A stretch of DNA of 64,000 nt, taken from contig NZ_ATZI01000005.1 of the NCBI RefSeq assembly GCF_000428125.1, positions 62,001 to 126,000 of the forward strand. Direction: 5' to 3'. The position numbers and the translations under genes are program-made. Shown one piece after another: positions 39,083-64,000 of the stretch. Source of the DNA: Bacteroides graminisolvens DSM 19988 = JCM 15093 (GTDB lineage Bacteria; Bacteroidota; Bacteroidia; Bacteroidales; Bacteroidaceae). The notes beneath the pieces are model-generated. The model did no database searches and was not told the DNA's origin. It saw only the letters and a program-made list of their open reading frames with translations. How positions within the stretch are numbered: position 1 is the first letter of the stretch; each line of letters opens with the position of its first letter.

Positions 39083-39100
39083 TATTTTTGTTTATCTTTG
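39083..39100 (+). promoter_or_regulatory. Tandem -7 elements before the pseudogene
   Basis: TATTTTTG (39083-39090) and TATCTTTG (39093-39100), both matching TAnnTTTG, 26 bp before a possible ATG (39126). They look like a surviving promoter. Confidence 0.4.
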
Positions 39101-39125
39101 ATGCGTTAAACTTCAAATCGGTCTC

Positions 39126-39833
39126 ATGAAAATAATTATTTGTATGAATCATCGTAATTTATTGTTCTCCAGTTAACTTGGCTTGTTGAGCGTCTTTTCA
39201 CTCTGGTGGTTTGATATGGAAATTTAAAACAAAGGGGAACGAATACTTTCCTAAGGGTGAAATTCAGAAAAGGGCTACTTCTTACAATTAAATCGGTTGT
39301 TTTTGGGTGCAGAGATAACTTTATGTATTCGCTCAACATGCAATCGGGCAAACTCAACTGGAGTAAGGAAGAAGCCAATAACTGGATTATTGCTACACCA
39401 CTTTAGGATGATGGTTTGCTGTGCTACGGAACGTCAGATTCACACTGTTTTCGGTGTGTGAAGGAAGGCTGCAACCGGAGAAATTAAAACAAGTTTTCCA
39501 TTGAATATGAGGGTGTATGCAGAAGCGGTTTTGTTACGTAATCAGATACTATTTGGTTGTTTAAACGGTAAATTATATCAGATAGATCCTGCTTCGTGCA
39601 CTATATAGAAAGTCTTTCAGACGGATGGTGGTAAATATATTTATCATCGGGTGTACAACGATGATGGAACTTTTAGAGATGATTTCAAACTATATGGCGA
39701 TGATATAGCTGCATCCGAGAAACAAATACTTGCATTGGGATCTATTCTCTCTACTCCTCGTATAGTCAATGGAATTATTTATGTGGGTGACTCCAACGAG
39801 TCCTTTTATGCACTGCGGTTAATTACCCCATAA
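39126..39833 (+). pseudogene. Decayed PQQ-type beta-propeller gene
   Basis: Blade-like fragments occur in order but in changing frames. Near 39200: GGLIWKFKTKGNEYFPKGEI. Near 39290-39410: VVFGCRDNFMYSLNMQSGKL, then WIIATPL, a TAG stop, and DDGLLCYGTSDSHC. After a frameshift near 39460: ATGEIKTSFPLNMRVYAEA and LFGCLNGKLYQIDPAS, a TAG stop, then an open stretch from 39609 to the end (IVNGIIYVGDSNESFYAL). These match PQQ-binding-like (BamB-like) repeats. Several stops and at least two frameshifts mean it cannot be made as one protein. Only the last 60 codons remain open. Confidence 0.8.
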
Positions 39834-39856
39834 TTATTTTTAAAAGATGCTATCGA

Positions 39857-41275: not shown

Positions 41276-41408
41276 ATTTATGATATATTATTAGTTTTGT
41301 AACGGTAAAAATACGGCATAGCACTGCCATTCACTTTCACGAATAGATATTTGATTTGTACTTTTAGATAAAAAGCGTGCTTTCTCCATATATTATATCG
41401 GACTCAGG

Positions 41409-45254: not shown

Positions 45255-45506
45255 ATACGGTGTTTTTCAATGAATAGATTTGTAACACTTACAAAATAAG
45301 GAAAAGAATTCGACTTTACCGCTAATTCGGGATGCTTTTTTGTTTATCGGTCAACTTTCGACGGACTACGCTGATCAGCGTTTCAAATTTTAGGTATATG
45401 TTTTCTAATTTTAGATATATTTCCATTTATATCTAATAGTGAAAAACAAATATTCATTTTTAAACTCCACCATTATTCATTGCCCTTACATTTACCGCCG
45501 AAATTG

Positions 45507-45782
45507 TTAACTTTTAAACTAATCACAGAATGAAAAAAGTAATTTGTATCCTAACGATGCCTTTCGTGTTCATCTGGGTGTCGGTCAAACAGTGTACCAT
45601 CTCCGGTACGATGACCGATAAAAATAAAGGGCCAACTACTGGCTTAAATATCTTAGTAAAAAGGATGTCAAATGGTGTGCTCACTAACCTCCGCGGGAAG
45701 TTCACACTGATGGTTAATCGAAATCTATTATTCAAGTATCTTTTTTTAGAAAGAAAATGCGATTATTAATTCTTAAACTAAT
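45507..45782 (+). repeat. Duplicated susC leader, imperfect 17-bp direct repeat
   Basis: TTAACTTTTAAACTAAT (45507-45523) precedes the relic ORF and TTAATTCTTAAACTAAT (45766-45782) precedes the intact susC; 15 of 17 bases agree. The similarity continues into the coding starts (ATGAAAAAAGTAATT versus ATGAAAAATGTAATT). Suggests tandem duplication of the 5' end. Confidence 0.65.
45530..45769 (+). pseudogene. Relic of a susC N-terminal region
   Basis: Short ORF of 79 residues. After a hydrophobic start (MKKVICILTMPFVFIWVSV), residues about 23-65 (CTISGTMTDKNKGPTTGLNI, then VLTNLRGKFTLMV) match the carboxypeptidase-D-like domain that begins SusC proteins (G-T-V-D-x-N-G-P-x-G-x-x-x-L-V-K-G-T-x-G-x-x-T-x-x-x-G-x-F-x-L). 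The frame then decays and stops before the TonB box. It could still encode a small exported protein, but the position 16 bp before an intact susC makes a duplication remnant more likely. Confidence 0.65.
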
Positions 45783-45785
45783 TGT

Positions 45786-48700
45786 ATGAAAAATGTAATT
45801 AAGAAAAATCAGAAGATTTCTTGCTTATTTGTGCTTATGCTTTTTACATCTATGTCAGCATGGGCGCAATTTCAAGTCAAAGGCACAATCGTCTCAGGTA
45901 TAGATTCTGAGCCAATGATTGGTGTGGCTATTTTAGAGAATGGAACAAACAATGGTGCTATTACCGATCTCACAGGTAATTATTCGATTCAAGTACGAAA
46001 CAGTAATGCAACTATTACTGTATCTTTTGTAGGTTTCAAATCTCAGACTATCCAGGTCAATGGGCGTAATGTGATCAACATCAATATGGAGGAAGATACA
46101 AAACTTATCGACGAAGTAGTGGTAGTTGGTTACGGTGTTCAGAAGAAGAGTGACATTACAGGTGCTATTGCCTCGGTCAACGGAGACGACATTAAGAACC
46201 TTTCAACAGTAGATGCCGGTGCTGCTCTTCAAGGTAAGGCTGCCGGTATTCAGGTTTTGAATTCATCGGGCGCTCCCGGCCAAGGTGCTTCAATTCGTAT
46301 TCGTGGCTATTCATCCAATTCAGATAAACTAGGTCCTCTATTAATTGTTGATGGTTTAAAGGTAGACAATATTCAGTATCTTGATCCTTCAATGATTGCG
46401 TCTATGGAGGTTCTTAAGGATGCGGCGTCAGCTGCAATTTATGGAGCTCAGGCCGGTAATGGTGTTGTTCTTATTACAACAAAGACCGGTAATAGCGCCA
46501 ATGGTCGTCCGAAAATAACGTACTCTTTCAAGGCTATCAACCAGAGACTTGGCAAAACCCCTGAAATTTTCGGTGCAAAAGATTGGATCAAATATAAGGA
46601 ATTGTCCGGTTACGACATGAAAACTCTTTGCCAGAGCAATGGAGTTGATTACGACAACCCTCAAGAGACTGACTGGATAAAAGAAGTATTTGGAGATAGC
46701 TGGGCAACTCAGCATTCTGTTACCTTTCAAGACGGCAATGATAAAGGTCATTTCTTTACTTCTGTAAACTACTTAAACAACGATGGTATTGTACGTGGAA
46801 AGAAAGATACCTATACTCGTCTTACCGGTCAACTCAATGCAGACTACCAACTCTATAGCTGGATTAAGGTTGGTACAAACACCTCTATTGAAAAATGGGC
46901 TACCCGCAATATCACTCATCAAAGCGCTTATGGCTCTATGTTGGCACCGGCTCTTTTACTCGATCCTCTGACTCCTGTATATTGGGATAGCGTTGATGAC
47001 TTCACAACAGACATGAAAGAACAGTATGCTACGAATCCTGAAACCATCCTTGTTGCTCCAAATGGCAAGTACTATGCTACTTCAAAATTTCAGAAGGATG
47101 ACAACGGTAACCCTCTCCTCCAGCGTGATCGCCGCAATGCTAAAAGTTCCGGTTTCACGGTTCGTGGTACTGCTTTTGCAGACCTGACTCCTATTGATGG
47201 TCTTGTGATGACATCCCGGTTCTCTTACATCATTGCACAGACTAACAATCACGACTATGCTGAACCTTATTATATGAATGGTCAAGCTAAAGCTACAGAT
47301 TATACTATTTCAGCTTCAGCCAACAATAACCATTACTATCAGTGGGAAAACTTTGCAAACTTCAATAAGACATTATTCGAGAAGCACAATATCGGTGCTA
47401 TGATCGGTATGTCATATACTGAATATCGCTCGGACAATGTATCAGCATCAGCTACCGGTACAGGTGGTAACAAAATACTTTCCGGTGACGCTAACAACTT
47501 TAAGTATCTCGATTATGTAAACTCAGCTGAGACTACAACAAAGAGTATCGGTAACCTTCCGGGACTTTCTACGAGCCTCTCTTACTTTGGCCGATTCTTA
47601 TATACTTACGACAATCGTTATAGTTTGCAGTTTAATTACCGTGCCGACGCATTTGATACTTCCAAACTTCCTTCTGACAAACGTTGGGGTAAGTTTCCTT
47701 CAGTTGCCGTAGGCTGGAATATCGGAAATGAGAAATTTATTACAAACAACATTAGCAGCGATCTTCTTTCATTCTTGAAATTCCGTGCTTCTTGGGGACG
47801 TAACGGTAATGTTAGTGTGCTTAGCAATTATCCCTATGTTTCGCCAATCAGTTACAATTCTTCTTGGTATCAATATGGTGATGACCCTGCTCAGCACTAT
47901 GGATCTTATCCATCGGGTCTTGCCAATCCGAACCTCAAGTGGGAAACATCTGAACAGTTGGACTTCGGTCTTGACATGCGTTTCTTTAATGATAGGTTGA
48001 CACTTAGTCTTGACTATTTTAACAAGGATACAAAGGATCTTCTCATATCTACCAACCCGGTTCCTGAAGTGTATGTAAATACGACTATAGTCAATGCCGG
48101 TGAGATTAACAACAGGGGATTTGAATTTGAAGCCTCTTGGAAAGATCATATTGGCGATTTGAAGTATAATATTTCCGGAAACTTCTCTACTTTGAGAAAC
48201 AGGGTTACTTATTTGTATGACGACATCACTCGCATCACTGGCAACAAAGGTGGTGTAGATGGTACCAATAACATGGTATGTTCCGCATTTGAGGAAGGTC
48301 ACTCTATATGGTACTTCCGTGCATACGATTATGCAGGTGTTAACAAAGAAACCGGTGCAGCTCAATTCCGTAACCATGAGGGTAAAATTGTTTCCTCTTC
48401 AGAGCTAAGCGACCAGGATATGACCGATATAGGTAGCGCCATTCCAAGGTTTACTTATGGCTTGACTATAAATTTGGAGTATAAAGGTTTGGATTTCTCT
48501 GTATTTGGTACAGGTGTAGGAGGTAATAAGATTTTCAATATCCTTTATCGTGCAGATACGCCTATGCGTAATTCACTGAAGTATTACATGGACAATGCTT
48601 GGAGCGAAACCAACAAAAATGCTTCTATGCCTGCTGTTGCAAATGTTGCTCAAGACCGTTACTTCTGGAGTTCAAGTGCTTCAATGTTTAAAGGTGATTA

Positions 48701-48935
48701 TTTCAAGATTAAACAGATACAATTAGGCTACACATTGCCCAAAACACTCACCAAGAGAATTGCTCTTAAGGAACTTCGCTTCTTCGTTTCTTTGGATGAC
48801 TTCTTTACTTTCTCAAGCTATCCTGGTATGGATCCTGAGACTGCAACGACTTCCAATAATGGTGGTGGAGGATATGATATTGGTACATACCCAACCATGA
48901 AGAAATGCACATTCGGTGCAAGCTTTGCATTTTAA
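45786..48935 (+). CDS. SusC-like TonB-dependent outer-membrane transporter (pair 3, xylan-type PUL)
   Basis: Transporter of 1049 residues with signal peptide (ending SAWAQ), carboxypeptidase-D-like domain (GTIVSGIDSEPMIGVAILEN), TonB box IDEVVVVGYG, plug (AALQGKAAGIQVLNSSGAPG, LLIVDGLKVDN, MEVLKDAASAAIYGAQAG) and barrel to the C-terminal MKKCTFGASFAF. It carries oligosaccharide captured by the SusD protein encoded 44 bp downstream. Induction by the divergent HTCS is expected; its upstream region (45255-45529) lacks a consensus promoter, which fits activator-dependent expression. Confidence 0.94.
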   Translation: MKNVIKKNQKISCLFVLMLFTSMSAWAQFQVKGTIVSGIDSEPMIGVAILENGTNNGAITDLTGNYSIQVRNSNATITVSFVGFKSQTIQVNGRNVININMEEDTKLIDEVVVVGYGVQKKSDITGAIASVNGDDIKNLSTVDAGAALQGKAAGIQVLNSSGAPGQGASIRIRGYSSNSDKLGPLLIVDGLKVDNIQYLDPSMIASMEVLKDAASAAIYGAQAGNGVVLITTKTGNSANGRPKITYSFKAINQRLGKTPEIFGAKDWIKYKELSGYDMKTLCQSNGVDYDNPQETDWIKEVFGDSWATQHSVTFQDGNDKGHFFTSVNYLNNDGIVRGKKDTYTRLTGQLNADYQLYSWIKVGTNTSIEKWATRNITHQSAYGSMLAPALLLDPLTPVYWDSVDDFTTDMKEQYATNPETILVAPNGKYYATSKFQKDDNGNPLLQRDRRNAKSSGFTVRGTAFADLTPIDGLVMTSRFSYIIAQTNNHDYAEPYYMNGQAKATDYTISASANNNHYYQWENFANFNKTLFEKHNIGAMIGMSYTEYRSDNVSASATGTGGNKILSGDANNFKYLDYVNSAETTTKSIGNLPGLSTSLSYFGRFLYTYDNRYSLQFNYRADAFDTSKLPSDKRWGKFPSVAVGWNIGNEKFITNNISSDLLSFLKFRASWGRNGNVSVLSNYPYVSPISYNSSWYQYGDDPAQHYGSYPSGLANPNLKWETSEQLDFGLDMRFFNDRLTLSLDYFNKDTKDLLISTNPVPEVYVNTTIVNAGEINNRGFEFEASWKDHIGDLKYNISGNFSTLRNRVTYLYDDITRITGNKGGVDGTNNMVCSAFEEGHSIWYFRAYDYAGVNKETGAAQFRNHEGKIVSSSELSDQDMTDIGSAIPRFTYGLTINLEYKGLDFSVFGTGVGGNKIFNILYRADTPMRNSLKYYMDNAWSETNKNASMPAVANVAQDRYFWSSSASMFKGDYFKIKQIQLGYTLPKTLTKRIALKELRFFVSLDDFFTFSSYPGMDPETATTSNNGGGGYDIGTYPTMKKCTFGASFAF

Positions 48936-48979
48936 TAGAGAAAGTAATTTTTGAAAAACTTTTTAAAAAGTAATTTATT

Positions 48980-50656
48980 ATGAGAAAAATAATATATTCC
49001 CTTTTAGGTGTTGCATTCCTTTTCAGTGCTTGCGAGGATCGCCTCGACATTGAACAGAAAGGTGTCATCTCGTTTGATAGTTTTTATAAGACTGATGATG
49101 ATGCACAGAATGCACTCAACAATCTCTATCAATCATTCTGTTTGAATATAGCCGGTAATGAAGGTATTTATGTGGCCCTCCCTTTGCTTTTTGACGAAGC
49201 TGGCGATGATATGTTGGCAGCAGGTAATATGTATGGTGACAACGACTTTGGTGCACAGATTAACGAGTTTCGCTATGATTCACAAAATGAAGTAATCAAG
49301 AATACGTACTGGGGACTCTATGGTGTGATTTATGATTGCAACCTTATCTTGGACAATATAGAACCCACTACGTCTATTAAGAAACGGGTTTGTGCGGAAG
49401 CTCGTACACTGCGTGCCTGGTCGCATATGATGCTCGCTATTGCTTGGGACTGCCCTCCATTGGTTGATCATATTCTTAAGCCGAGTGATAAACCGGCTAA
49501 CAATGCGGTTGAAGGCGGCCACAATGGGTTGCTGGAATGGTGTGCCAAAGAAGCAGAGGCCGCAGTTGCCGATCTTGACGAACGTGAAAGCCCATCAGAC
49601 AAGGTGGGTGCCTCAAAGGTAACGAAGGGCTTTGCTCTTACCGTAGCCGGTAAGGCTCGCTTGTTTAAAGGTGACTATGCCGGAGCGAAAGCTAACTTGG
49701 AGCAGGTTATCACTTCAAAAAAATACGAACTAGTTCCTACTGAACGTTGGCCAAATTTGTTCCACGCATCAGGTGACCTCTGTGAGGAGATGATTTTCCA
49801 AGCTAACGCACTTGAAAATGCTGCTGTTGGTGACTGGAGTAACAAAATCCAGCGTACATCTTGGATGTGGATTCAGTTCTGGAACTGGCGTACTGACAAG
49901 TTAGCTACCAAACCTTCATTTATCGGTCCCGATGGTTGGGGTGGTCACTCTATCCGTGCTGATTTTGCAGAACGAATGTTGGCAAACGATGGTAACTCAC
50001 CACGTCGTAAAGCGACATTCCTTACTGGTGACGAATTTCTTTATGAAATGGATTGGAATGGTACCAAAGGTGAAAACTTGACTCGCGCCGAGCTGGAGAA
50101 ATCGCCTAAGATTGGAATCAAGGATCCAACAGGCCTTTATGGCTTTGCAGGTTATTTCGCTAACAAATTCGTTGCGTGGCCTGAAGATAACGAGAAGGGT
50201 TGGTATGGATTCAAGAATCTCACTATCTTCCGTTACGCTGAAGTTCTCTTGATGTATGCTGAGGCTTGTGCACAAACTTCCGATCCAAATGGTTTGGGTC
50301 TGAAATGTCTTCAGGATATTCAGAAACGTGCGGGTTCTGCTCATCTCTCAACTGAACTTACCATGCAGGAAGTAAAGAACGAGAAGAGCTATGAGATGTG
50401 GCTTGAGGCAGTTCGTTTCCCCGATATGGTACGCTGGGGTGATACGGATGGTGTTGTAAATAATGGTAAGAACATACCAACTACCTACGATGCTTTCTTT
50501 ACTAAGAATGAGCCGATCCATCGCCTGTATGTGGAGACGTCAAATCCCAACAAGGGTCAAACAGGTTTTGTGAAAGGTAAACATGAATATTTCGCATATC
50601 CATTTGCCGCAACTTCAATCAATCCTAACCTAAAGCAGAACCCGAGTGGTGAATAA
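48980..50656 (+). CDS. SusD/RagB-like glycan-binding lipoprotein (pair 3)
   Basis: Surface lipoprotein of 558 residues, lipobox LFSAC (Cys17) followed by EDRLDIEQKGVIS, the start of classical SusD proteins. It holds the TPR scaffold (AEARTLRAWSHMMLAIAWDC; FRYAEVLLMYAEACAQT) and the C-terminal signature YEMWLEAVRFPDMVRWGD. Binds glycan at the surface and forms the lid of the adjacent SusC. It is followed by a strong hairpin before the enzyme genes. Confidence 0.94.
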   Translation: MRKIIYSLLGVAFLFSACEDRLDIEQKGVISFDSFYKTDDDAQNALNNLYQSFCLNIAGNEGIYVALPLLFDEAGDDMLAAGNMYGDNDFGAQINEFRYDSQNEVIKNTYWGLYGVIYDCNLILDNIEPTTSIKKRVCAEARTLRAWSHMMLAIAWDCPPLVDHILKPSDKPANNAVEGGHNGLLEWCAKEAEAAVADLDERESPSDKVGASKVTKGFALTVAGKARLFKGDYAGAKANLEQVITSKKYELVPTERWPNLFHASGDLCEEMIFQANALENAAVGDWSNKIQRTSWMWIQFWNWRTDKLATKPSFIGPDGWGGHSIRADFAERMLANDGNSPRRKATFLTGDEFLYEMDWNGTKGENLTRAELEKSPKIGIKDPTGLYGFAGYFANKFVAWPEDNEKGWYGFKNLTIFRYAEVLLMYAEACAQTSDPNGLGLKCLQDIQKRAGSAHLSTELTMQEVKNEKSYEMWLEAVRFPDMVRWGDTDGVVNNGKNIPTTYDAFFTKNEPIHRLYVETSNPNKGQTGFVKGKHEYFAYPFAATSINPNLKQNPSGE

Positions 50657-50710
50657 AAATAGGTTTTAAAAATTGCATTGTAACTCATTGAATGCTGGCA
50701 TGTAATGCAG

Positions 50711-50750
50711 AATGTCCGCGCTGTAAATATACCGTGGCGCGGACATTTTT
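50711..50750 (+). terminator. Hairpin with T-run between susD and the enzyme genes
   Basis: AATGTCCGCGC (50711-50721) pairs with GCGCGGACATT (50737-50747) and is followed by T residues. It may attenuate rather than end transcription, because five genes follow on the same strand with no consensus promoter seen. Confidence 0.8.
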
Positions 50751-50766
50751 ATATAATATCCACTAA

Positions 50767-53187
<2,421 letters not shown>

Positions 53188-53268
53188 AATATACGAATTT
53201 GTTTTTGTATAGAGTGCCTGTTTGCACAAAACAAACCGTTCGCTTACATATCTAAAAATAATAAATTT

Positions 53269-54039
53269 ATGAGTATTTTCCATCACAAAAAATGGTTGAT
53301 TTTAGGTCTATCCCTGCTTACCGGTATATATGCCGAAGCACAGCAGACCGGTGCGGTAACCAATCGTGCTCCAAATCCTACGCCGGGAATGATGCCCGGC
53401 CCGCGACAACCACAACCAATACAAACACCCACTTATTTGGCCGATTATTTCGTCCCGGCTACAAAGGATGTTTCTGTACCAGACGAGAAGGGTTTTATCC
53501 GGCGCTGGATGTTACTGGAACCCATTAGTAAACCCAACCGCTCCAATACAGTATTCACCGACAGCTACTTGAATCAGGCATTTGATACGCTGTATTTCAA
53601 AAACCAGTTCACGGTCTTTCCTAAAGACGGTGAGAAGGTTAAAGTAGGGAAACAGAAGTTGACTTGGCATGCACTGGACAGCAAGCTATACAACGTGAAG
53701 CTTTATCGTTTCGCTGCTGCTTTGAAAAAACCGGTATATGGCGTACTGTTTTGGGCGGTTACTATCATTGATTGTCCCGAAGACATAGAGAATGTTCGTC
53801 TGTCGGCGGGCTCCAACTCTGCCTCTAAGTGGTGGCTGAACGGCGAAGAAGTTCTTCTTCTTTCGGGCGACCGCCGCATGGTAGTCGACGACTGCCTATC
53901 ACGTCGTCTGACCCTCAAGAAAGGCCGGAATATTCTGCGCGGAGTCGTTATCAATGGCCCGGGCATGAGTGATTTTTGCGTCCGTTTCTTGAATGAGAAC
54001 GGAACACCTGTTAAGAACATGACAATCAGTAACCAATGA
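53269..54039 (+). CDS. Secreted beta-sandwich protein of the PUL, unknown function
   Basis: Protein of 256 residues with a signal peptide (MSIFHHKKWLILGLSLLTGI, cleavage near AEAQQ), a Pro/Gln-rich linker (about 32-60) and one beta-rich domain. The middle and end (ENVRLSAGSNSASKWWLNGE, SGDRRMVVDDC, LKKGRNILRGVVINGPG) look like jelly-roll modules in which a small loop displays a WWLNG motif. I recognise no enzymatic motif. Context between esterases and GH43 genes suggests glycan binding or a helper role; this is inference. Its stop overlaps the next start by 4 bp. Confidence 0.65.
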   Translation: MSIFHHKKWLILGLSLLTGIYAEAQQTGAVTNRAPNPTPGMMPGPRQPQPIQTPTYLADYFVPATKDVSVPDEKGFIRRWMLLEPISKPNRSNTVFTDSYLNQAFDTLYFKNQFTVFPKDGEKVKVGKQKLTWHALDSKLYNVKLYRFAAALKKPVYGVLFWAVTIIDCPEDIENVRLSAGSNSASKWWLNGEEVLLLSGDRRMVVDDCLSRRLTLKKGRNILRGVVINGPGMSDFCVRFLNENGTPVKNMTISNQ

Positions 54040-55493
54040 CCATGAAAACAAGAGCTATACTACTGGGCGCAACAGCCCTGATGTCTGTATTGATATCCCA
54101 AAGAACGTTTGCACAAATCGGTACTCCCTATATTCACGATCCCTCTACCATTATGGAGTGTGAGGGGAAATATTATACTTTCGGTACTGGCGGAGGCGGA
54201 TTGATTTCCGAGGACGGCTGGACTTGGAACGGTGGCGCAGAACGCCCCGGTGGAGGAGCAGCGCCGGATGCAGTGAAAATTGGCGATCGCTATCTGATCG
54301 CTTACAGTGCTACCGGTGGTGGATTAGGCGGCGGACATGCTGGTCGGGTGTTGACTATGTGGAACAATACGTTAGATCCCAAATCTCCCGATTTCAAGTT
54401 TACCGAACCTATCGAAGTGGCTCATTCACTTGATGATGAAGATTGCGATGCGATTGATGCCGGACTATTGCTCGACCCAACGGACGGACGGCTCTGGTTG
54501 TCCTACGGCACCTATTTCGGATTCATTCGCATTGTGGAACTTGATCCAAAGACCGGCAAGCGCGTAGAGGGCAATAAGGAAATCAACGTTGCCATCGACT
54601 GCGAAGCTACCACTTTGATGTATCGCGACGGCTGGTATTACCTGCTGGGCACACACGGCACTTGCTGTGATGGACCGAATTCTACTTATAATATTGTAGT
54701 CGGACGCTCGCGCAGTGTGACGGGGCCTTACATCGACAATGTGGGTAGAGACATGTTGGAAGGCGGTGGCAAGCTGGTGATAGCTGCTGGCGAACGCAAA
54801 ACAGGCCCGGGGCACTTCGGACGCTTCGTGGTAGCCGATGGCGTGGAAAAAATGTCTTATCATTACGAGGCCGATTTTGATCAGGGTGGTCGTAGCGTGT
54901 TAGCCATACGTCCGCTCTTGTGGAAAAACGGATGGCCCGTGGCAGGAGAAGCATTCAAGGAAGGAACTTACGAGATTGAATCCGAACGCAGAGGTTATGC
55001 TCTCGAACTAGCTGTCGACTTTGTACGCATGCAAGGCAGTATGCATCGCTTCTGGGAGAAAGATGCTCAGCCTATGACACCGCTGAAATCACAAACGTTG
55101 GAAGATGTAATCGGTACGTGGCCGAAAGGGGATATTAACGTACGTATCGGTGACTACATGTTCCGTCCTCATCAGAAGTGGACCATTACCGCAGTGCCCG
55201 AAGCCGGTGGATACTTGGGCGGCCCTTATTACAAGATTGTGATTGAAGGTACTAATCGTGCGTTAGCTGCCACTGCAGACGCAGAAGTCGTGGCAGTTCC
55301 TCAATTTACCGGGTCACCTGAACAGTTGTGGAGAATTGATCAACTGACGGACGGTACGTATCGTATTATGCCTAAAAAAGTGCCGGGAACTGATAAGGAG
55401 CTTGTTCTGGTATCAGCAGGCGATAGTACGCCAACGTTGGGTCTGTTCGATATGAATAGTGATAACTCTAAATGGAATTTCCATGACCGCTAA
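54036..55493 (+). CDS. Glycoside hydrolase family 43 enzyme with C-terminal ricin-like domain
   Basis: Secreted enzyme of 485 residues. The five-bladed propeller carries the GH43 acids: general base Asp in YIHDPSTIMEC, Asp in CDAIDAGLLLD and general acid Glu in DCEATTLMYRDGW. GH43 enzymes release arabinose or xylose from arabinoxylan, arabinan or xylo-oligosaccharides. The C-terminal 130 residues repeat Q-x-W blocks (HQKWTITAV, EQLWRIDQL) and look like a ricin-type beta-trefoil that may bind glycan. ATG 54036 overlaps the previous stop (ATGA); an ATG two codons later is also possible. Confidence 0.88.
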   Translation: MTMKTRAILLGATALMSVLISQRTFAQIGTPYIHDPSTIMECEGKYYTFGTGGGGLISEDGWTWNGGAERPGGGAAPDAVKIGDRYLIAYSATGGGLGGGHAGRVLTMWNNTLDPKSPDFKFTEPIEVAHSLDDEDCDAIDAGLLLDPTDGRLWLSYGTYFGFIRIVELDPKTGKRVEGNKEINVAIDCEATTLMYRDGWYYLLGTHGTCCDGPNSTYNIVVGRSRSVTGPYIDNVGRDMLEGGGKLVIAAGERKTGPGHFGRFVVADGVEKMSYHYEADFDQGGRSVLAIRPLLWKNGWPVAGEAFKEGTYEIESERRGYALELAVDFVRMQGSMHRFWEKDAQPMTPLKSQTLEDVIGTWPKGDINVRIGDYMFRPHQKWTITAVPEAGGYLGGPYYKIVIEGTNRALAATADAEVVAVPQFTGSPEQLWRIDQLTDGTYRIMPKKVPGTDKELVLVSAGDSTPTLGLFDMNSDNSKWNFHDR

Positions 55494-56814
55494 ATATTTG
55501 TTATTAACCTTTACAATGCTGTCTATCGGCATTGTAAAGGCACAGAATCCTATTATTAAGGGACAGTTTACAGCCGATCCTACGGCGAGAGTCTTCAATG
55601 GAAAGATGTACCTCTATCCATCGCATGACATTCCGGCGCCTGCCGACAAACCCAATCTTCGTAAAGACTGGTTTTGCATGGCGGATTATCACGTGTTCTC
55701 GTCCGAGAACCTGACCAACTGGACAGACCATGGCGTTATCCTTACGCAGGAAAAGGTGCCCTGGCTGAATGCTGAGGCGTATGCTATGTGGGCACCCGAC
55801 TGTGCATACAAGGATGGCATGTACTACTTTTACTATCCTGCAATAGTCAAACCCGATTCCATTACCAAACGATTCGGGATGATGGTAGGTGTAGCCGTAT
55901 CCGATCGTCCCGACGGGGGATTTGTACCCATGACCGAACCCATCAAAGGTATCTATGGCATTGATCCTTGTACGTTAATCGACGATGACGGGCAGGCGTA
56001 TATTTATTGGTCGGGACGTGGCATGCAGGGTGCGCGGCTTAAGCCAAACATGCTTCAACTCGACTCTGAGCCGGTGGCATTAGGGAATTTCCCCGACGGG
56101 ATGAAAGAAGGACCTTTTGTCTTCAAACGTAATGGCAAGTACTATTTCACATTCCCGTGGGTACCCAAAGAGGGCGAAACAGAGAATCTGTCGTATGCTA
56201 TGGGTGACAGTCCATTGGGACCATTCGAGTATAAAGGGTTGATTATGGATCAGTCACCTACCAAATGCTGGACAAACCATCATTCCATTGTCGAATACAA
56301 AGGTGAATGGTATCTGTTTTATCATCACAATGATTACTCGCCACAATTCGATAAAAATCGTTCCGTTCGTATCGATAAGATCTGCTTCAATGAAGACGGA
56401 ACCATTCAAAAAGTGACACCGACATTGCGCGGGGTGGGCATTACGAATGCAACCGATGAAATTCAGCTTGATCGTTACTCGGAATTAAGTAAGATGGGTG
56501 CCGCTATCAACTACGTAGATACGACCGATTATTTTGCCGGTTGGAAGACTGTCTTAAATGCCAGGAATGCTTACGTGCAATATAACGATGTTGATTTTGG
56601 AACGACCGGACTAACATCGGTCTCGGCACAAGTCCTCAATGGAAAAGGCAAACTACTGGTGAAAGTGGATGATAAGATCATTGCCCGGATAGCTGTCAAA
56701 GAAGCCGGACTAATCACGGTTCCGGTTAAAGATATTCCGCAAGGCGTACACAATTTGTCAGTTGTATCAGCTGATAAAGGGAAGGTTGAGGTCGACTGGA
56801 TACAGTTTAAATAA
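55483..56814 (+). CDS. Glycoside hydrolase family 43 enzyme with C-terminal CBM6-like domain
   Basis: Secreted enzyme of 443 residues (signal peptide ending IVKAQ) with start ATG 55483, which overlaps the previous stop by 11 bp. The GH43 catalytic set is Asp in FTADPTARVFNG, Asp in GIDPCTLIDDDG and Glu in MKEGPFVFKRNG. The C-terminal part (about 330-443; VSAQVLNGKGKLLVKVDDK and VVSADKGKVEVDWIQF) looks like a CBM6-type sandwich. It would trim arabinosyl or xylosyl units. An in-frame TTG-type upstream start is less likely. Confidence 0.88.
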   Translation: MTAKYLLLTFTMLSIGIVKAQNPIIKGQFTADPTARVFNGKMYLYPSHDIPAPADKPNLRKDWFCMADYHVFSSENLTNWTDHGVILTQEKVPWLNAEAYAMWAPDCAYKDGMYYFYYPAIVKPDSITKRFGMMVGVAVSDRPDGGFVPMTEPIKGIYGIDPCTLIDDDGQAYIYWSGRGMQGARLKPNMLQLDSEPVALGNFPDGMKEGPFVFKRNGKYYFTFPWVPKEGETENLSYAMGDSPLGPFEYKGLIMDQSPTKCWTNHHSIVEYKGEWYLFYHHNDYSPQFDKNRSVRIDKICFNEDGTIQKVTPTLRGVGITNATDEIQLDRYSELSKMGAAINYVDTTDYFAGWKTVLNARNAYVQYNDVDFGTTGLTSVSAQVLNGKGKLLVKVDDKIIARIAVKEAGLITVPVKDIPQGVHNLSVVSADKGKVEVDWIQFK

Positions 56815-56863
56815 TAGGAATAATGGTATTTGCTTTTATTTACTATAAAATAGAAAAGGGTTT

Positions 56864-57244
56864 ATGAAAAAGCAATGGATCTCGTTGTTGTTGGTCTCTG
56901 TACTTGGGAACATCCCGATGCAGGCTGCAGAGCCGGTAATCAAGAGCATAGGAGAATCAAAATATGTCATCGAAACCGGAAATCTGTCGATGACTATTGA
57001 TGCTGCCGGAGGAGCTAAGATTCGTTCTTTTAAATTCAAGGACGCTGAAGTCATTTCACAGTCACCCATGCGGGAAACATTTGGGAGCACCTTCTGGACT
57101 AGTCCTCAGAATGAATGGAACTGGCCACCGGTAGCCGAATACGACAAGTTGCCTTATACGGTGCGTTGGTATCTCATGCCCGTGAACAGTGAATCTATCA
57201 CTTCTCAACAGTTGATTTCTAAAGTAAGGGCTCTTTTCAATTAG
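56864..57244 (+). pseudogene. Truncated DUF4380-like (galactose-mutarotase-like) gene
   Basis: ORF of 126 residues with an intact signal peptide (MKKQWISLLLVSVLGNIPM, cleavage near MQAAE). Residues about 30-110 match the start of DUF4380-type beta-sandwich proteins (GNLSMTIDAAGGAKIRSFKF, FWTSPQNEWNWPPVAEYD). Full-length members are about three times longer, so the C-terminal part is missing. The end SKVRALFN runs into a stop at the point where the family continues. It may still make a short product. Confidence 0.65.
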
Positions 57245-57267
57245 TCATCGTCTTAATCAATATAGGT

Positions 57268-58071
57268 ATGACAATAGGTAGAAGATTGGGTGTTGCTTCA
57301 AGCGTGATAGGAGTAGCTTTATGTCTGCTTCTATCCGCTTGTTCAAACAAATCCGCAAGATCTGACTGGACACAATTGGTGCTGAATGACTCTAGTTACT
57401 TTGAGGCTCCCGGATTGAATGTAATGGTGTTTAGTCACTCTTACGATGGCCTGTTTGATGACTCAAAAATGGCAGGCATCGAGATCGTGCATCACGGCTT
57501 GTGCATGGCCAGGAATGGTGATGTACACCTAAACCCTGCACCCGGACAATGGGATTTGCATTCTATACTGATTGAAAAAAAGGTGGAACGGAAGAATAAC
57601 CTCATTATTGCACAACTGAAATACGATAACCCACATTTTATTTATCAGATCCAGGCGCGACTGGGTGATGGGGGAATTTATGTCAGTGTGTGGACGGATC
57701 AACCAATCCCGGATGAGTTGAAAGGAATAGCAAGCTTAGACATTGAATTTGCCCCCATGCTTTACGTGGGGCATACTTATATCATGGATGGTAAGGTGCG
57801 GGAGATACCTCATTCTCCGCACGGCGAGATGATTATCCGGAAAACGGATGCTTCAAAGCCGCTCCCCATTGCCACAGGGAAGAAATTTGATATCAATCCC
57901 GATGATGCGGAAAGGCACATCACGGTGAGTAGTGCAGAACAAAACTTACTATTTTACGACGGTTGGAGTAAAGCTCAGAACGGATGGCTCGTATTGCGCA
58001 GTCTGCTTCCGGCGGGCAAGTCGGGGAAGATCCTGGAGTGGTTCATCTCGGGCGAAACAAAAAAGTCCTGA
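57268..58071 (+). pseudogene. 5' fragment of a GH9-type cellulase-family gene, truncated at tRNA-Asp
   Basis: ORF of 267 residues starting with a lipobox (LLLSAC) and an N-terminal domain found before the CelD-like Ig and catalytic domains of Bacteroides GH9 enzymes (YFEAPGLNVMVFSHSYDGLF, GIEIVHHGLC, GDVHLNPAPGQWD, ARLGDGGIYVSVWTD). The catalytic domain is missing. The frame ends at KKS with the stop TGA inside the terminator hairpin of the oppositely oriented tRNA-Asp, which shows that the gene has been cut or fused here. Family assignment is by pattern memory and should be confirmed by profile search. Confidence 0.65.
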
Positions 58072-58091
58072 AGTATGAACCTCAGGACTTT
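58062..58091 (-). terminator. Intrinsic terminator of tRNA-Asp
   Basis: Minus-strand stem AAAGTCCTGA (82-91 side) with TCAGGACTTT (62-71 side), 10 nt loop, followed by a run of T. It overlaps the stop codon of the GH9 fragment. Confidence 0.85.
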
Positions 58092-58095
58092 GATG

Positions 58096-58169
58096 CGGTG
58101 CGTACGGGACTCGAACCCGTGACCCCATGCGTGACAGGCATGTATTCTAACCAACTGAACTAACGCACC
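58096..58169 (-). tRNA. tRNA-Asp (anticodon GTC)
   Basis: Minus-strand cloverleaf: acceptor GGTGCGT with ACGCACC, D-arm GTTC...GAAT, anticodon arm CATGC-CTGTCAC-GCATG (GTC), T-arm ACGGG-TTCGAGT-CCCGT, discriminator G. CCA is not encoded. The 3' end points toward the PUL. Confidence 0.97.
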
Positions 58170-58516
58170 ATTATTTTTTTATTTGTAATCTCTCTCGATT
58201 GCGGTTGCAAAGGTAGCTGTTTTTTTGAAACCTGCAATAGCTTGGCAAACTTTTTTTTAATGAAAAAATAGCTTTTTGACCTTGTTGCCTCAGAATGAGA
58301 CTATTCCGCAATCAAAAAAAACAGTCCGGCTTTTCTCTATGTGAAGAGCCCGGTTGTGAGAGTTTACTATTTTTGAGCGCTACAATCTTTCTATATGTTA
58401 CTTTTTTATCTTTTGCAATAAACTTATTGTGTTTATTATTTATATATTGGCAATAATTCGTTATTTTTGCTGCCTCAATTTGATGATTAGTGACAGACAA
58501 TAATAAGAAAGTGAAT
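58170..58516. other. Intergenic region between tRNA-Asp and purU
   Basis: About 350 bp. A minus-strand hairpin with a T-run (58314-58353; GGCTTTTC with GAAGAGCC) looks like a terminator, but no gene lies upstream on that strand; it could end a small RNA or readthrough. The purU promoter lies at the right end. Confidence 0.4.
58462..58469 (+). promoter_or_regulatory. Promoter -7 element of purU
   Basis: TATTTTTG matches TAnnTTTG, 47 bp before the ATG at 58517. Confidence 0.55.
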
Positions 58517-59371
58517 ATGACAACAGCAAAACTGTTATTGCATTGCCCTGATAAACCGGGCATTCTGGCGGAGGTAACAGACTTTATTACGGTAAACAAA
58601 GGGAATATCATTTATCTGGATCAGTACGTTGACCATGTGGAAAATATCTTTTTCATGCGTATTGAGTGGGAATTGCAAGAATTCCTTGTCCCGCAGGAGA
58701 AAATCGAAGATTATTTTGAAACGCTTTATGCACAAAAATACGGAATGAGTTTCCGTCTCTATTTCTCCGATGTAAAACCCCGTATGGCCATCTTTGTTTC
58801 AAAAATGTCGCATTGTCTGTTCGATATGCTGGCTCGTTATACTGCCGGCGAATGGAATGTGGAGATTCCTCTTATCATAAGCAATCATCCTGACCTGCAA
58901 CACGTGGCCGAACGTTTCGGTATTCCTTTCTACCTGTTTCCTATCACCAAAGAAACCAAGGAGGAACAGGAACAAAAAGAGATGGAGTTGCTCAAAAAGT
59001 ACAAAGTGGACTTTATTGTGCTGGCCAGATACATGCAGGTTATTTCCGAAAACATGATTAATGCATATCCCAATAAGATCATTAACATTCATCACTCTTT
59101 CTTGCCCGCTTTCGTAGGTGCCAAACCCTACCATGCAGCATTTGAAAGAGGAGTGAAGATTATTGGTGCAACCAGCCATTATGTTACTACGGAATTAGAT
59201 GCCGGACCCATCATTGAACAGGATGTGGTGCGCATAACACACAAAGATGCGGTTGAAGACCTGGTGAACAAAGGGAAAGACCTCGAAAAGATAGTGCTTT
59301 CACGGGCGGTGCAAAAACACATTGAACGAAAAGTACTCGCATATAAGAATAAAACGGTTATTTTCAGTTAA
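58517..59371 (+). CDS. purU: Formyltetrahydrofolate deformylase
   Basis: Hydrolyses 10-formyl-tetrahydrofolate to tetrahydrofolate and formate. Protein of 284 residues from ATG 58517 (a GTG at 58490 gives nine more). It has an N-terminal ACT domain (about 5-80; LLLHCPDKPGILAEVTDF) and a formyl-transferase-fold domain with the catalytic Asn-His-Asp set: INIHHSFLPAF and TTELDAGPIIEQ. Length normal. It precedes the his genes by 27 bp and may supply one-carbon balance, but co-transcription is not proven. Confidence 0.92.
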   Translation: MTTAKLLLHCPDKPGILAEVTDFITVNKGNIIYLDQYVDHVENIFFMRIEWELQEFLVPQEKIEDYFETLYAQKYGMSFRLYFSDVKPRMAIFVSKMSHCLFDMLARYTAGEWNVEIPLIISNHPDLQHVAERFGIPFYLFPITKETKEEQEQKEMELLKKYKVDFIVLARYMQVISENMINAYPNKIINIHHSFLPAFVGAKPYHAAFERGVKIIGATSHYVTTELDAGPIIEQDVVRITHKDAVEDLVNKGKDLEKIVLSRAVQKHIERKVLAYKNKTVIFS

Positions 59372-59398
59372 GAGATAACCCGAATACATTGAAATAGA

Positions 59399-59989
59399 AT
59401 GAACGTTGCAATAGTAAAATACAATGCGGGCAATATCCGTTCGGTAGATTATGCCATGAAGCGTCTGGGTGTGGAGGCTGTGATTACGGCCGACAAAGAG
59501 GTGCTTATGTCTGCCGATAAGGTTATATTTCCGGGAGTGGGAGAGGCTGAGACTACCATGAATCACCTTCGCGCTACCGGGCTCGATGAACTGATCAAGA
59601 ACCTCAGGCAACCTGTGCTGGGCATTTGCTTAGGCATGCAGCTCATGTGCCGGTACTCCGAAGAGGGCGATACAAACTGCTTGAACATCTTCGATACGGA
59701 AGTGAAACGTTTTGTTCCCGCGCGTCACGAAGATAAGGTTCCTCACATGGGATGGAATACGATTGGTGAAGTGAACAGTCGTTTGTTCAACGGGTTTACG
59801 GAGGAAGAGTTTGTTTACTTCGTACATAGCTTTTATGTACCGGTCAACGAATGTACAGCTGCGCAGACTCATTACATCCTTCCTTTCAGTGCGGCTCTTC
59901 ACAAAGATAATTTTTATGCTACACAGTTTCACCCCGAAAAAAGTGGAACGGTAGGCGAACGAATTTTAAAAAACTTTCTGGATATATGA
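59399..59989 (+). CDS. hisH: Imidazole glycerol phosphate synthase, glutaminase subunit HisH
   Basis: Class I glutamine amidotransferase of 196 residues that supplies ammonia to HisF. Motifs: GICLGMQLM with nucleophile Cys, PHMGWN, and the His-x-Glu pair in ATQFHPEKSG. It forms the pair with HisF encoded two genes downstream. Its stop overlaps the hisA start (ATGA). Confidence 0.96.
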   Translation: MNVAIVKYNAGNIRSVDYAMKRLGVEAVITADKEVLMSADKVIFPGVGEAETTMNHLRATGLDELIKNLRQPVLGICLGMQLMCRYSEEGDTNCLNIFDTEVKRFVPARHEDKVPHMGWNTIGEVNSRLFNGFTEEEFVYFVHSFYVPVNECTAAQTHYILPFSAALHKDNFYATQFHPEKSGTVGERILKNFLDI

Positions 59990-60705
59990 TCGAACTGGTT
60001 CCTGCTATTGATATCATTGATGGAAAATGTGTGCGACTGTCGCAAGGTGATTACGACAGCAAGAAAATATACAATGAGAATCCGGTAGAGGTTGCCAAAG
60101 AGCTTGAAGCCAATGGCATCCGCCGCTTACACGTGGTCGACCTCGACGGGGCGGCCTCGCATCATGTGGTGAACTACCGCACACTGGAACAAATTGCCAC
60201 ACGTACTTCGCTGATCATTGACTTTGGCGGAGGGGTGAAAAGTGATGAGGACTTGATCCTGGCTTTCGAGAATGGGGCTCAGATGGTTACCGGCGGAAGC
60301 ATTGCCGTGAAGAATCCTGATCTGTTCACCCGTTGGCTCAATCAGTATGGTAGCGAGAAAATCATTCTCGGAGCCGATGTGAAAGATAAGAAAGTAGCCG
60401 TTAACGGATGGAAAGATGAAACGGAAACGGAATTAATGCCTTTCTTGCAAGAGTATGTGCACAAGGGCATTCAAAAGGTTATTTGTACGGATATCAGTTG
60501 TGACGGTATGCTCCAGGGACCTTCTTTGGAACTCTACCAAGAGATTCTGTCGCAGCAACCCGATTTGTTCCTCATTGCCAGCGGCGGGGTGAGCAGCATG
60601 GATGACATCCGTGCACTGCATGATGCCGGAGTACCTTCGGTTATCTTCGGGAAGGCTCTCTACGAAGGGCGCATCACCTTGAAGGAACTGTATGATTTTA
60701 TGTAG
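59986..60705 (+). CDS. hisA: ProFAR isomerase HisA
   Basis: TIM-barrel isomerase of 239 residues (phosphoribosylformimino-AICAR-phosphate isomerase). Catalytic Asp near residue 8 (PAIDIIDGKCVRL) and Asp in ICTDISCDGML; phosphate-binding loops DFGGGVKS and IASGGVSS. Overlaps hisH by 4 bp and precedes hisF by 60 bp. Confidence 0.96.
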   Translation: MIELVPAIDIIDGKCVRLSQGDYDSKKIYNENPVEVAKELEANGIRRLHVVDLDGAASHHVVNYRTLEQIATRTSLIIDFGGGVKSDEDLILAFENGAQMVTGGSIAVKNPDLFTRWLNQYGSEKIILGADVKDKKVAVNGWKDETETELMPFLQEYVHKGIQKVICTDISCDGMLQGPSLELYQEILSQQPDLFLIASGGVSSMDDIRALHDAGVPSVIFGKALYEGRITLKELYDFM

Positions 60706-60765
60706 ACCCGGGCAAAGAACCCGCGTGTTTGAATGAGAAGTATAAGTCAATAAATAATAAAGAGC

Positions 60766-61524
60766 GTGTTAGCAAAAAGAATAATTCCCTGTCTGGATAT
60801 AAAAGACGGACAAACAGTGAAAGGCACCAACTTTGTCAATCTGCGTCAGGCGGGCGATCCCGTGGAACTGGGGCGTGCTTACAGTGAGCAGGGAGCCGAT
60901 GAACTGGTGTTTCTGGATATCACAGCCAGTCACGAAGGACGCAAAACGTTTACCGATTTGGTAAAAAGGGTGGCGGCCAACATCAGCATTCCGTTTACAG
61001 TAGGCGGTGGCATCAACGAATTGGGTGATGTGGAACGCCTGTTGAACGCCGGAGCCGATAAGGTCTCCATCAACTCGTCTGCCATCAGGAATCCCAACCT
61101 GATTGATGAAATAGCCAAGAACTTCGGCTCGCAGGTATGCGTGGTGGCTGTGGATGCCAAGCTGGGCGACAACGGCCTGTGGAAATGTTTCCTCAATGGC
61201 GGACGCATCGAGACGGAGAAGGAATTGATGACCTGGACGCTCGAAGCGCAGGAGAGGGGAGCCGGCGAAATTCTTTTCACCAGCATGAATCACGACGGGG
61301 TGAAAACCGGATACGCCAATGAGGCGTTGGCACAATTGGCCGACGGTCTGTCTATTCCTGTCATTGCATCGGGTGGTGCCGGTACGCCGGAGCATTTTCG
61401 GGATGCTTTTACGTTGGGAAAAGCCGATGCGGCTCTGGCTGCCAGCGTTTTTCACTTTGGTGAGATTAAAATTTCCGAATTAAAATCGTATCTTTGCGCA
61501 CAAGGTATTACAATGAGAATTTAA
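60766..61524 (+). CDS. hisF: Imidazole glycerol phosphate synthase, cyclase subunit HisF
   Basis: TIM-barrel cyclase of 252 residues making imidazole glycerol phosphate and AICAR with HisH. Catalytic Asp residues in [13 protein letters not shown] and [11 protein letters not shown]; phosphate loops VGGGINE and IASGGAG. The start is a GTG at 60766; no ATG gives the conserved [10 protein letters not shown] start. Confidence 0.96.
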
Positions 61525-61536
61525 TAGGGTTTGAAT

Positions 61537-62151
61537 ATGAATATAGATTTCAATAAAATGAACGGTCTGGTACCGGCTATCATACAAGATAATATTACCC
61601 GCAAGGTGCTTATGCTGGGCTTTATGAATAAAGAGGCTTACGAAAAAACCATTGAAACAGGCAAGGTTACTTTCTTCAGCCGCACCAAAAACCGTTTGTG
61701 GACCAAAGGAGAAGAAAGTGGCAATTTTCTTCACGTTGTATCTGTAAAAGAAGATTGCGATCAGGATACGTTGCTCATTCTGGTCACTCCTGTTGGACCG
61801 GTATGCCATTTGGGTACGGACACCTGCTGGGGCGAGACCAATGAAAAAGAACCCGTTCTGTTCCTCAAAGATTTGCAGGATTTCATCGTGAAGCGATACG
61901 AAGAGATGCCCGAGAAATCCTATACCACCAGTCTGTTCCAGTCGGGTGTGAACCGCATGGCTCAGAAGGTAGGCGAGGAAGCTGTCGAAATGGTGATTGA
62001 AGCCACCAACGGCACGGACGAAAGAATGATTTATGAAGGCTCCGATTTACTGTATCACCTCATTGTTTTGCTTACCTCCAAAGGGTATCGCATTGAAGAC
62101 TTGGCACGTGAATTAATGGAAAGGCATTCAGCATCATGGACGAAGCACTAA
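61537..62151 (+). CDS. hisI: Bifunctional HisIE (phosphoribosyl-AMP cyclohydrolase / phosphoribosyl-ATP pyrophosphatase)
   Basis: Two fused histidine-pathway enzymes in 204 residues. The HisI half (about 1-105) has GFMNKEAY, the zinc site segment VKEDCDQDT and HLGTDTCWGE; the HisE half (about 110-200) has VGEEAVEMVIEA and SDLLYHLIVLL. ATG 61537 is chosen over a TTG two codons upstream. It overlaps ftsE by 16 bp, so translation is probably coupled. Confidence 0.96.
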   Translation: MNIDFNKMNGLVPAIIQDNITRKVLMLGFMNKEAYEKTIETGKVTFFSRTKNRLWTKGEESGNFLHVVSVKEDCDQDTLLILVTPVGPVCHLGTDTCWGETNEKEPVLFLKDLQDFIVKRYEEMPEKSYTTSLFQSGVNRMAQKVGEEAVEMVIEATNGTDERMIYEGSDLLYHLIVLLTSKGYRIEDLARELMERHSASWTKH

Positions 62152-62840
62152 TCACATACTCTCATGTAGAAGTACACCAGCAGGAGCTTTGCGTATTGAG
62201 CGAGGTGAATCTGGAACTAAATAAGGGCGATTTTGTTTATCTTATTGGTAAGGTAGGATCCGGGAAGACAAGCTTGCTCAAAACCTTTTATGCCGAACTG
62301 GGTATCGCCGAAGGCGAAGCCGTTGTATTGGGCAATGACATGCGCACCATCAAGCGCAAGCACATTCCTCAGTTAAGGCGTAAACTGGGCATCGTTTTTC
62401 AGGATTTCCAACTGTTAACAGATCGTTCGGTGTATGACAACCTCGAGTTTGTTCTCCGGGCAACCGGCTGGAAAAACAAACAGGAAATCAAAGACCGTAT
62501 CGAGGAGGTTCTTCAGCAGGTGGGCATGAGCAACAAAGGCTACAAACTGCCTAATGAACTGTCGGGTGGTGAGCAACAGCGCATCGTTATCGCGCGGGCT
62601 GTACTTAACTCGCCCCAAATCATATTGGCAGACGAACCCACGGGGAATCTCGATGTGGAAACCGGAAAAGCCATTGTGGAATTGCTTCACAGCATCAGCA
62701 GGCAAGGGTCTTCGGTGGTGATGACCACACACAATTTACACTTGCTCAAAGAATATCCCGGAAAGGTGTACCGGTGTAAAGACCATCACCTGACCGACGT
62801 AACCGATGAATATGTAGTTAAAGAAAACATAGAGAATTAA
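62136..62840 (+). CDS. ftsE: FtsE-like ABC ATPase
   Basis: ATP-binding subunit of 234 residues of the FtsEX type, which links cell division to cell-wall hydrolysis. Walker A GKVGSGKTSLL, Q-loop FQDFQLL, signature LSGGEQQR, Walker B ILADEPTGNLD and a switch His (TTHNLH). No ftsX lies beside it. Start overlaps hisIE by 16 bp, an unusual operon neighbour that is nevertheless typical of Bacteroides his clusters, as far as I recall. Confidence 0.9.
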   Translation: MDEALITYSHVEVHQQELCVLSEVNLELNKGDFVYLIGKVGSGKTSLLKTFYAELGIAEGEAVVLGNDMRTIKRKHIPQLRRKLGIVFQDFQLLTDRSVYDNLEFVLRATGWKNKQEIKDRIEEVLQQVGMSNKGYKLPNELSGGEQQRIVIARAVLNSPQIILADEPTGNLDVETGKAIVELLHSISRQGSSVVMTTHNLHLLKEYPGKVYRCKDHHLTDVTDEYVVKENIEN

Positions 62841-62872
62841 TTCATTCATAACATTTTAATACAGTAACGAAA

Positions 62873-64000
62873 ATGAAAGTTTTAAAGTTTGGAGGAACTT
62901 CTGTAGGCTCTGCACAAAGAATGAAAGAAGTAGCCAAATTAATTACCGATGGTGAAAAAAAGATTGTTGTTCTTTCGGCTATGTCGGGCACAACAAACAC
63001 ATTGGTAGAGATTTCCGACTATCTGTACAAGAAGAATCCGGAAGGTGCTAATGAAATTATCAACAAGCTGGAGATTAAATATAAACAGCACGTTGATGAA
63101 TTGTATGCCACCGCCGAATATAAACAGAAAGGTATGGAGGTTGTCAAATCTCATTTTGACTACATTCGTTCCTATACCAAAGATCTTTTCACACTGTTTG
63201 AAGAGAAAGTAGTGTTGGCTCAGGGCGAGCTCATCTCTACGGCTATGGTGAACTTCTACTTGCAGGAATGCGGAGTGAAATCGGTGTTGCTTCCGGCTTT
63301 GGAATTCATGCGTACTGATAAAAATGCGGAGCCCGATCCGGTTTACATCAAAGACAAACTGGCTGCTCAGCTGGAGCTGTATCCGGATGCTGAAATATAC
63401 ATCACACAGGGTTTCATCTGTCGCAATGCGTACGGTGAAATTGATAACCTTCAAAGAGGAGGCAGTGACTATACAGCCTCGCTGATCGGAGCTGCGGTAG
63501 ATGCTTCTGAAATTCAGATTTGGACTGACATTGACGGAATGCACAATAACGATCCGCGTATCGTTGACAAAACAGCACCCGTGCGTCAGTTGCACTTCGA
63601 AGAGGCAGCCGAGCTGGCTTATTTCGGTGCCAAGATTCTGCATCCTACCTGTGTGCAGCCGGCCAAGTATGCTAACATACCCGTGCGTCTGCTCAACACA
63701 ATGGATCCCGAGGCTCCCGGAACCATGATCTCTAACGATACCGAAAAAGGTAAGATCAAGGCCGTGGCTGCTAAAGAAAATATTACCGCCATCAAAATCA
63801 AGTCAAGCCGCATGTTGCTGGCTCACGGTTTCCTGCGTAAGGTTTTCGAGATTTTCGAGAGCTACCAGACTTCCATCGACATGGTGTGTACTTCGGAGGT
63901 AGGTGTTTCTGTTTCCATTGACAACACCAAGCACCTGAACGAGATTCTCGATGACCTGAAGAAATACGGTACGGTTACTGTCGACAAGGACATGTGCATC
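62873..64000 (+). CDS. Aspartate kinase, 3' end outside window
   Basis: Phosphorylates aspartate at the start of lysine, threonine and methionine synthesis. The visible 376 residues contain KFGGTSVG (kinase N-terminus), VVLSAMSGTTNTL, GFICRNAYGEI and the segment RGGSDYTASLIGA, WTDIDGMHNNDPR, followed by the start of the ACT region (about 295 onward). A monofunctional form of usual length near 440 residues is expected; the end is not in the window. It follows ftsE by 32 bp. Confidence 0.95.
   Translation, partial: MKVLKFGGTSVGSAQRMKEVAKLITDGEKKIVVLSAMSGTTNTLVEISDYLYKKNPEGANEIINKLEIKYKQHVDELYATAEYKQKGMEVVKSHFDYIRSYTKDLFTLFEEKVVLAQGELISTAMVNFYLQECGVKSVLLPALEFMRTDKNAEPDPVYIKDKLAAQLELYPDAEIYITQGFICRNAYGEIDNLQRGGSDYTASLIGAAVDASEIQIWTDIDGMHNNDPRIVDKTAPVRQLHFEEAAELAYFGAKILHPTCVQPAKYANIPVRLLNTMDPEAPGTMISNDTEKGKIKAVAAKENITAIKIKSSRMLLAHGFLRKVFEIFESYQTSIDMVCTSEVGVSVSIDNTKHLNEILDDLKKYGTVTVDKDMCI

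Follow-up and report, generated by a model that had tools for sequence, protein, structure and literature searches.

We find that a xylan-type PUL in the 64-kb window (the whole stretch of DNA analysed here, 64,000 nucleotides of a 192-kb contig of Bacteroides graminisolvens, in a single assembly of 32 contigs) has lost parts of its last two genes at its right end, where it abuts a tRNA-Asp gene. Judged from comparison with related genomes, the PUL is in a variable, island-like slot between conserved flanks, and its right end was probably trimmed later by short-homology deletions. The losses at this end are ordinary genome turnover, and the finding leaves accepted ideas unchanged, as PUL mobility and insertion at tRNA genes are already known. 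It provides a clear, reconstructable case of a PUL that sits at a site other than in its sister species and is losing distal genes, and it picks out the tRNA-Asp–purU interval as a slot that varies across the genus. The features are listed by position in the window.

38899–39073, no strand: end of the conserved left flank, with a terminator-like hairpin (BLASTN to G170 and G076; hairpin read by eye)
39074–39850, plus: degraded coding remnant with several stops (three-frame translation)
39857–41275, minus: MFS_2 sugar transporter (Pfam PF13347, 6.5e-106)
41308–58058, no strand: PUL block, collinear with the PUL that G170, G172 and G076 carry at another chromosomal site, minus esterase and GH10 genes
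41409–45254, minus: hybrid two-component regulator of the PUL (Pfam Reg_prop, HisKA, HATPase_c, Response_reg, HTH_18)
45786–48935, plus: SusC-like TonB-dependent transporter (Pfam plug, beta-barrel, CarbopepD_reg_2)
48980–50656, plus: SusD-like lipoprotein (Pfam PF07980, 4.2e-29)
50782–53187, plus: two tandem esterases (Pfam PF00756)
54036–56814, plus: two GH43 genes (Pfam PF04616)
56864–57244, plus: DUF4380-family gene, internally shortened in frame by 167 codons (alignment to 293-aa orthologues)
57153–57162, plus: joint of the internal deletion, CTTATACGGT (CTTATACnGT at both ends in three relatives)
57268–58071, plus: fragment of a GH9 gene, codons 1–264 of 847 (alignment to the relatives' orthologues)
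58055–58058, no strand: junction, AAAC common to the GH9 and tRNA sides (by eye against the GH9 and tRNA flanks of G170 and G076)
58062–58091, minus: tRNA-Asp intrinsic terminator, stem AAAGTCCTGA/TCAGGACTTT (folding; provides the stop codon of the GH9 fragment)
58095–58169, minus: tRNA-Asp (gtc), intact (ARAGORN)
58490–64000, plus: conserved right flank, beginning with a purU-like gene (formyl transferase and ACT domain; Pfam for this first gene)

The host genome groups in one genus, Bacteroides, with B. ihuae (G076) and B. reticulotermitis (G095), and a tree of 17 genomes based on three proteins places it as sister to the G170/G076/G172 clade with a support of 0.989. Pfam identifies a SusC/SusD pair, two GH43 proteins, esterases and a linked hybrid regulator, the make-up of a PUL. 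The regulator gene (minus strand) is followed on the plus strand by SusC, SusD, two esterases, a 256-aa protein, two GH43 proteins, the DUF4380-like protein and the GH9 fragment; from this content we infer xylan as the probable substrate. Orthologues of the SusC-like transporter in the relatives are 90–92% identical. A short ORF upstream of it (45530–45769), which partially matches CarbopepD_reg_2 but scores under the curated cut-off, is perhaps a remnant of a SusC N-terminus. Compared with Bacteroides xylan-type PULs (SusCD, HTCS, GH43, GH10, esterases), content and order are largely those of G076, G170 and G172, but GH10 and one esterase are absent, the DUF4380 gene is internally deleted and the GH9 gene is cut. 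The absent pair, a BD-FAE esterase and GH10, lies between GH43 and DUF4380 in the three relatives and is missing from G095 as well. G170 has two GH10 copies; the only close GH10 copy of the host genome belongs to another of its PULs (contig C3, L039 6885–9116) and is 91% identical to the GH10 of the B. ihuae PUL. At the place of the window's two tandem esterases, G095 (L093 13745–14898) shows a single one, with what looks like a frame break near 14030.

A preliminary description of this region had taken both genes at the right end as truncated. This holds for the GH9 gene, of which 264 of 847 codons remain, but not for the DUF4380-like gene, where 167 codons are missing from the interior and both the natural C-terminus and the reading frame are preserved. 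Its 126-aa product joins the first 100 residues of the 293-aa protein encoded intact in G170, G172 and G076 to the last 26, with 501 nt missing between them. The DUF4380 domain spans residues 204–271 of the intact orthologue, and only its last four residues are left in the window gene; the orthologue matches PF14315 (E 4.8e-8), and the window gene gives no match.

The GH9 ORF encodes 267 aa, and its alignment to the 847-aa GH9 proteins of G170, G172 and G076 runs to residue 264. Intact orthologues ending at this same residue, which the preliminary description had named as telling against its reading, are not what the relatives show. In the B. ihuae orthologue, CelD_N (272–355) and GH9 (394–777) both lie past the cut; the fragment retains only the part preceding these domains, and the catalytic domain is lost. 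Neither Pfam (at E<=1) nor NCBIfam (near a cut-off) gives a match for the fragment. Its relatives are encoded in 15 of the 61 genomes searched, the host genome included; their frames, the window gene excluded, measure 832–890 aa, except for one that reaches the end of its contig after 323 aa, and a stop falls inside the match at one place among the 61 genomes. The fragment ends in ETKKS followed by TGA (58069–58071), and its last residues and this stop codon do lie, as first described, within the convergent tRNA-Asp terminator, in its stem. Searching the host genome's DNA with the B. ihuae GH9 and its downstream genes returned the window locus, a diverged GH9 paralogue on C3, the only counterpart found for the lost part, and one 35-base match on C21. 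A second xylan-type PUL in the same genome contains full-length GH9 and GH10 and may make the loss of this GH9 tolerable.

At the junction, homology to GH9 stops at 58041–58047 by BLASTN, with identity traceable by eye to 58058, and homology to the tRNA side of G170 and G076 begins at 58055. The terminator forms a stable hairpin followed by a U-rich 3′ side on the tRNA strand; the 41-nt stretch folds with −19.6 kcal/mol (z −5.75) on this minus strand and with −15.2 kcal/mol (z −5.49) on the other. Since it is homologous to G170 and G076 from 58055 on, the terminator most likely belongs to the tRNA and was not brought by the PUL. Read by eye, the tRNA-Asp acceptor stem of G170, G076 and G172 is unlike that of the window and of G017.

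The junction was found in none of the 157 other Bacteroides genomes searched (one genome per species, at most four candidate places scored per genome), and the joint is bridged by the host genome alone. Parts of a 451-base junction query were matched by 9 of the 158 genus genomes, the host included: three matches end at 58041–58047, three cover shorter parts of GH9 and two cover only 58054–58100 or less. In plasmid and phage collections, 93 and 118 records, respectively, match, none over 80% of the query; the best 8 plasmid and 10 phage matches lie in the GH43 or tRNA region with one exception, among the matches listed, a Novosphingobium plasmid record with 152 bases at 69% inside the GH9 fragment. 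Viral contigs yielded nothing closely related to the fragment. A suspected composition step near 58060 is not supported, with a GC content of 43.5–45.3% in the 2 kb to the left and 40–49% in the 6 kb to the right.

On either side of the window PUL, the flanks (left of 39073 and right of 58055) are collinear in the relatives and face each other there across other DNA, about 85 kb in G170, 56 kb in G076 and 34 kb in G172. The left-flank match to G170 and G076 ends at 39073 and that to G172 earlier, at 38214 (BLASTN); G170 and G076 also part ways from each other at the point equivalent to 39073. On the right, G170, G172, G076 and G095 match in the same order, and the genes after the purU-like gene are presumably hisH, hisA, hisF, hisIE, an ABC ATPase and aspartate kinase, judging by their sequence. 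Among the genomes compared, the PUL is at this site in the host genome only. G170, G172 and G076 carry it intact at another chromosomal place away from tRNA-Asp, and the stretches compared around it contain no tRNA-Asp. The sister clade likely has a single PUL site, because the G076 PUL has the right flank of G170 and, on its left, the flank of G172, which includes a tRNA-Cys; on the same match of the G076 flanks to both, a separate location of the G172 PUL is unlikely. The tRNA-Cys lies 2.8 kb left of the PUL in G076 (L161 15506–15577) and 11.5 kb left in G172 (L160 15184–15255). Downstream of GH9, B. ihuae has a convergent cluster that we take, from its sequence, to be TolC/RND. In G095 the regulator gene is located beyond the GH9 end, and the stretch compared matches the right side of G076 in DUF4380 and GH9 alone.

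Between the left flank and the PUL, the window has the degraded remnant and the MFS_2 transporter. The 74-aa open piece of the degraded remnant (39609–39830) has no match in a Pfam scan at E<=0.1. The MFS_2 transporter has no DNA match at this place in four relatives; copies about 75% identical are found in G019 and in G129, where the same contig carries a GH43 relative too.

Short-homology (slippage-type) deletions are a known general kind, and the two joints at the right end, with 4 and about 10 shared bases, resemble them, the parental sequence being here a reconstruction. In the history that we consider probable, a xylan-type PUL would have come into the variable interval between the conserved left operon and the tRNA-Asp–purU block. 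A later deletion would have joined GH9 codon 264 to the edge of the native tRNA-Asp terminator via about four bases (AAAC), and another, between two 10-base near-repeats, would have shortened the DUF4380-like gene by the 167 codons. Further cutting to the right would harm the terminator or tRNA-Asp, a plausible limit to deletion. We infer the order of events, the deletion mechanism and the role of selection from one genome only, with parental sequences taken from relatives that are about 75% identical, and a match of four bases such as AAAC can arise by chance.

The cut could equally be a breakpoint that joined an already truncated PUL to the tRNA. As a full account, arrival next to tRNA-Asp in the truncated state, with the junction as an illegitimate or transposition-type insertion breakpoint, is in our view a possible but rather doubtful course of events. 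It would agree with the absence of the PUL from this slot in three relatives and with the lack of a DNA match to the remaining GH9 in the host genome, the diverged paralogue aside. However, the internal deletion in the neighbouring gene shows that deletions occurred at this end, and no repeat pairing the block edges is listed in 38200–58300 (minimum 14 nt; 20 of 21 direct families).

The preliminary description had read the junction as an integration scar at a tRNA 3′ end. Such a scar would have been left by site-specific integration of an integrase-bearing island at the tRNA-Asp 3′ end, with later loss of the integrase and the distal repeat, which we regard as unlikely. The idea has precedent in published Bacteroides elements that use tRNA 3′ ends and in G001 (C74), where a tyrosine-integrase gene (L183 8503–9975) lies 243 nt from tRNA-Asp and the element, about 9.5 kb long (L183/L194), ends in a distal repeat that comprises the terminator and 13 bases of the tRNA-Asp 3′ end; from this integrase and flanking repeat, integration in the genus seems to make use of the tRNA-Asp site. 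In the window, however, the tRNA end and the terminator each occur once (a 22-mer and a 34-mer match only themselves with up to 3 mismatches), and the longest exact direct repeat of this region to its left is 11 nt long, at 29795, so that the tRNA-end repeat predicted for the other PUL boundary was not found in the window. Moreover, no integrase was recognised among the ORFs of 39073–58095 (main ones Pfam-scanned), and the terminator is homologous to that of the sister species, all of which speaks against a scar. What stands of the proposed island is the variable slot and the location of the PUL elsewhere in three relatives; an attachment site at the junction is rejected by pattern and repeat searches of the window.

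We give little credence to the view that the shortened genes are not debris, in which the GH9 fragment would be a surface module kept on its own and the tRNA-Asp terminator would serve both the tRNA and the PUL operon. The fragment is an open frame with a lipoprotein-type start (read by eye). As a point against the deletion history favoured above, its dN/dS is 0.07 against each of the three relatives, with synonymous sites near saturation, and no relaxed selection is visible; because this ratio is not raised, decay after truncation is not demonstrated. An assembly or sequencing artefact is very improbable: only a single assembly of 32 contigs represents the genome, but the junction lies well inside its contig, three relatives have the flanks that it joins facing each other with order and orientation unchanged, and the joint of the internal deletion bears a repeat signature.

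Elements inserted at tRNA genes are known in Bacteroides. NBU1 is placed at tRNA-Leu and NBU2 at tRNA-Ser in the account of PMC5704250, PMC8102008 gives tRNA-Phe, Lys and Pro for GA2 ICEs and names a B. plebeius PUL ICE for the tRNA-Lys type, and PMC8008677 locates Quimbyvirus in tRNA-Asp of B. dorei. The PUL described here shares with such islands, IMEs, ICEs and phages the position of an accessory block by a tRNA 3′ end that is missing there in relatives; in contrast to them, no attachment repeat was found, no integrase was recognised and the junction lies at the terminator, outside the tRNA. As in the B. plebeius PUL ICE, to the extent that it is described in PMC8102008, a PUL is accessory chromosomal cargo, but here no conjugation or integration genes were recognised. 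Exchange of PULs between species is stated in PMC13188876 to be experimentally confirmed.

The surroundings of tRNA-Asp vary across the genus. tRNA-Asp was found near the purU-like gene in 11 of the 21 loci scanned, contig ends cutting some of the others, and the DNA adjoining the terminator is mostly different among 13 genomes, the host included (compared by eye), with a stretch common to G170 and G076. The gene beside tRNA-Asp in G022 has a relative in G018, 4 kb from the tRNA. The glycosyltransferase of a glycosyltransferase/GH130 block beside tRNA-Asp is present in G017, G170, G076 and G172 but was not found, at E<=1e-30, in the host genome and 8 of 9 others searched; the sister clade may have gained it rather than the host genome lost it.

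Synonymous divergence is lower in the PUL than in the flanks. Between the host genome and G170 the median pS is 0.55 for the PUL (n=10) and 0.80 for the flank (n=13). The relatives' pairs show the same pattern, with 0.46 (n=10) and 0.74 (n=11) for G170–G172, 0.65 (n=10) and 0.83 (n=11) for G170–G095, and 0.19 (n=10) and 0.41 (n=13) for G170–G076, whose PULs have the same right flank. Low PUL divergence is therefore not diagnostic of transfer, and we rejected it as proof of a recent one. The comparison covers 4 of 10 genome pairs with two-decimal values and draws on 14 flank genes, of which L_acyltr was omitted from all pairs used (no G170 match), L_thior from the G172 and G095 pairs, L_SusD from G095 and L_SusC from G172 (probably not orthologous, pN 0.53); L_SusC was retained for G095 despite a pN of 0.31. 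Along the PUL (45786–58059), synonymous divergence from G170 climbs from 0.40 in SusC to 0.70 in GH9 (Spearman 0.82, ten genes), a trend not present in the two sister–sister pairs tested. Elsewhere in the window, GC content is about 31–40% over positions 1–15000 and 36–51% across the remainder, and a tyrosine recombinase gene (Phage_int_SAM_5, Phage_integrase) lies at 21022–22044, about 17 kb left of the PUL slot.
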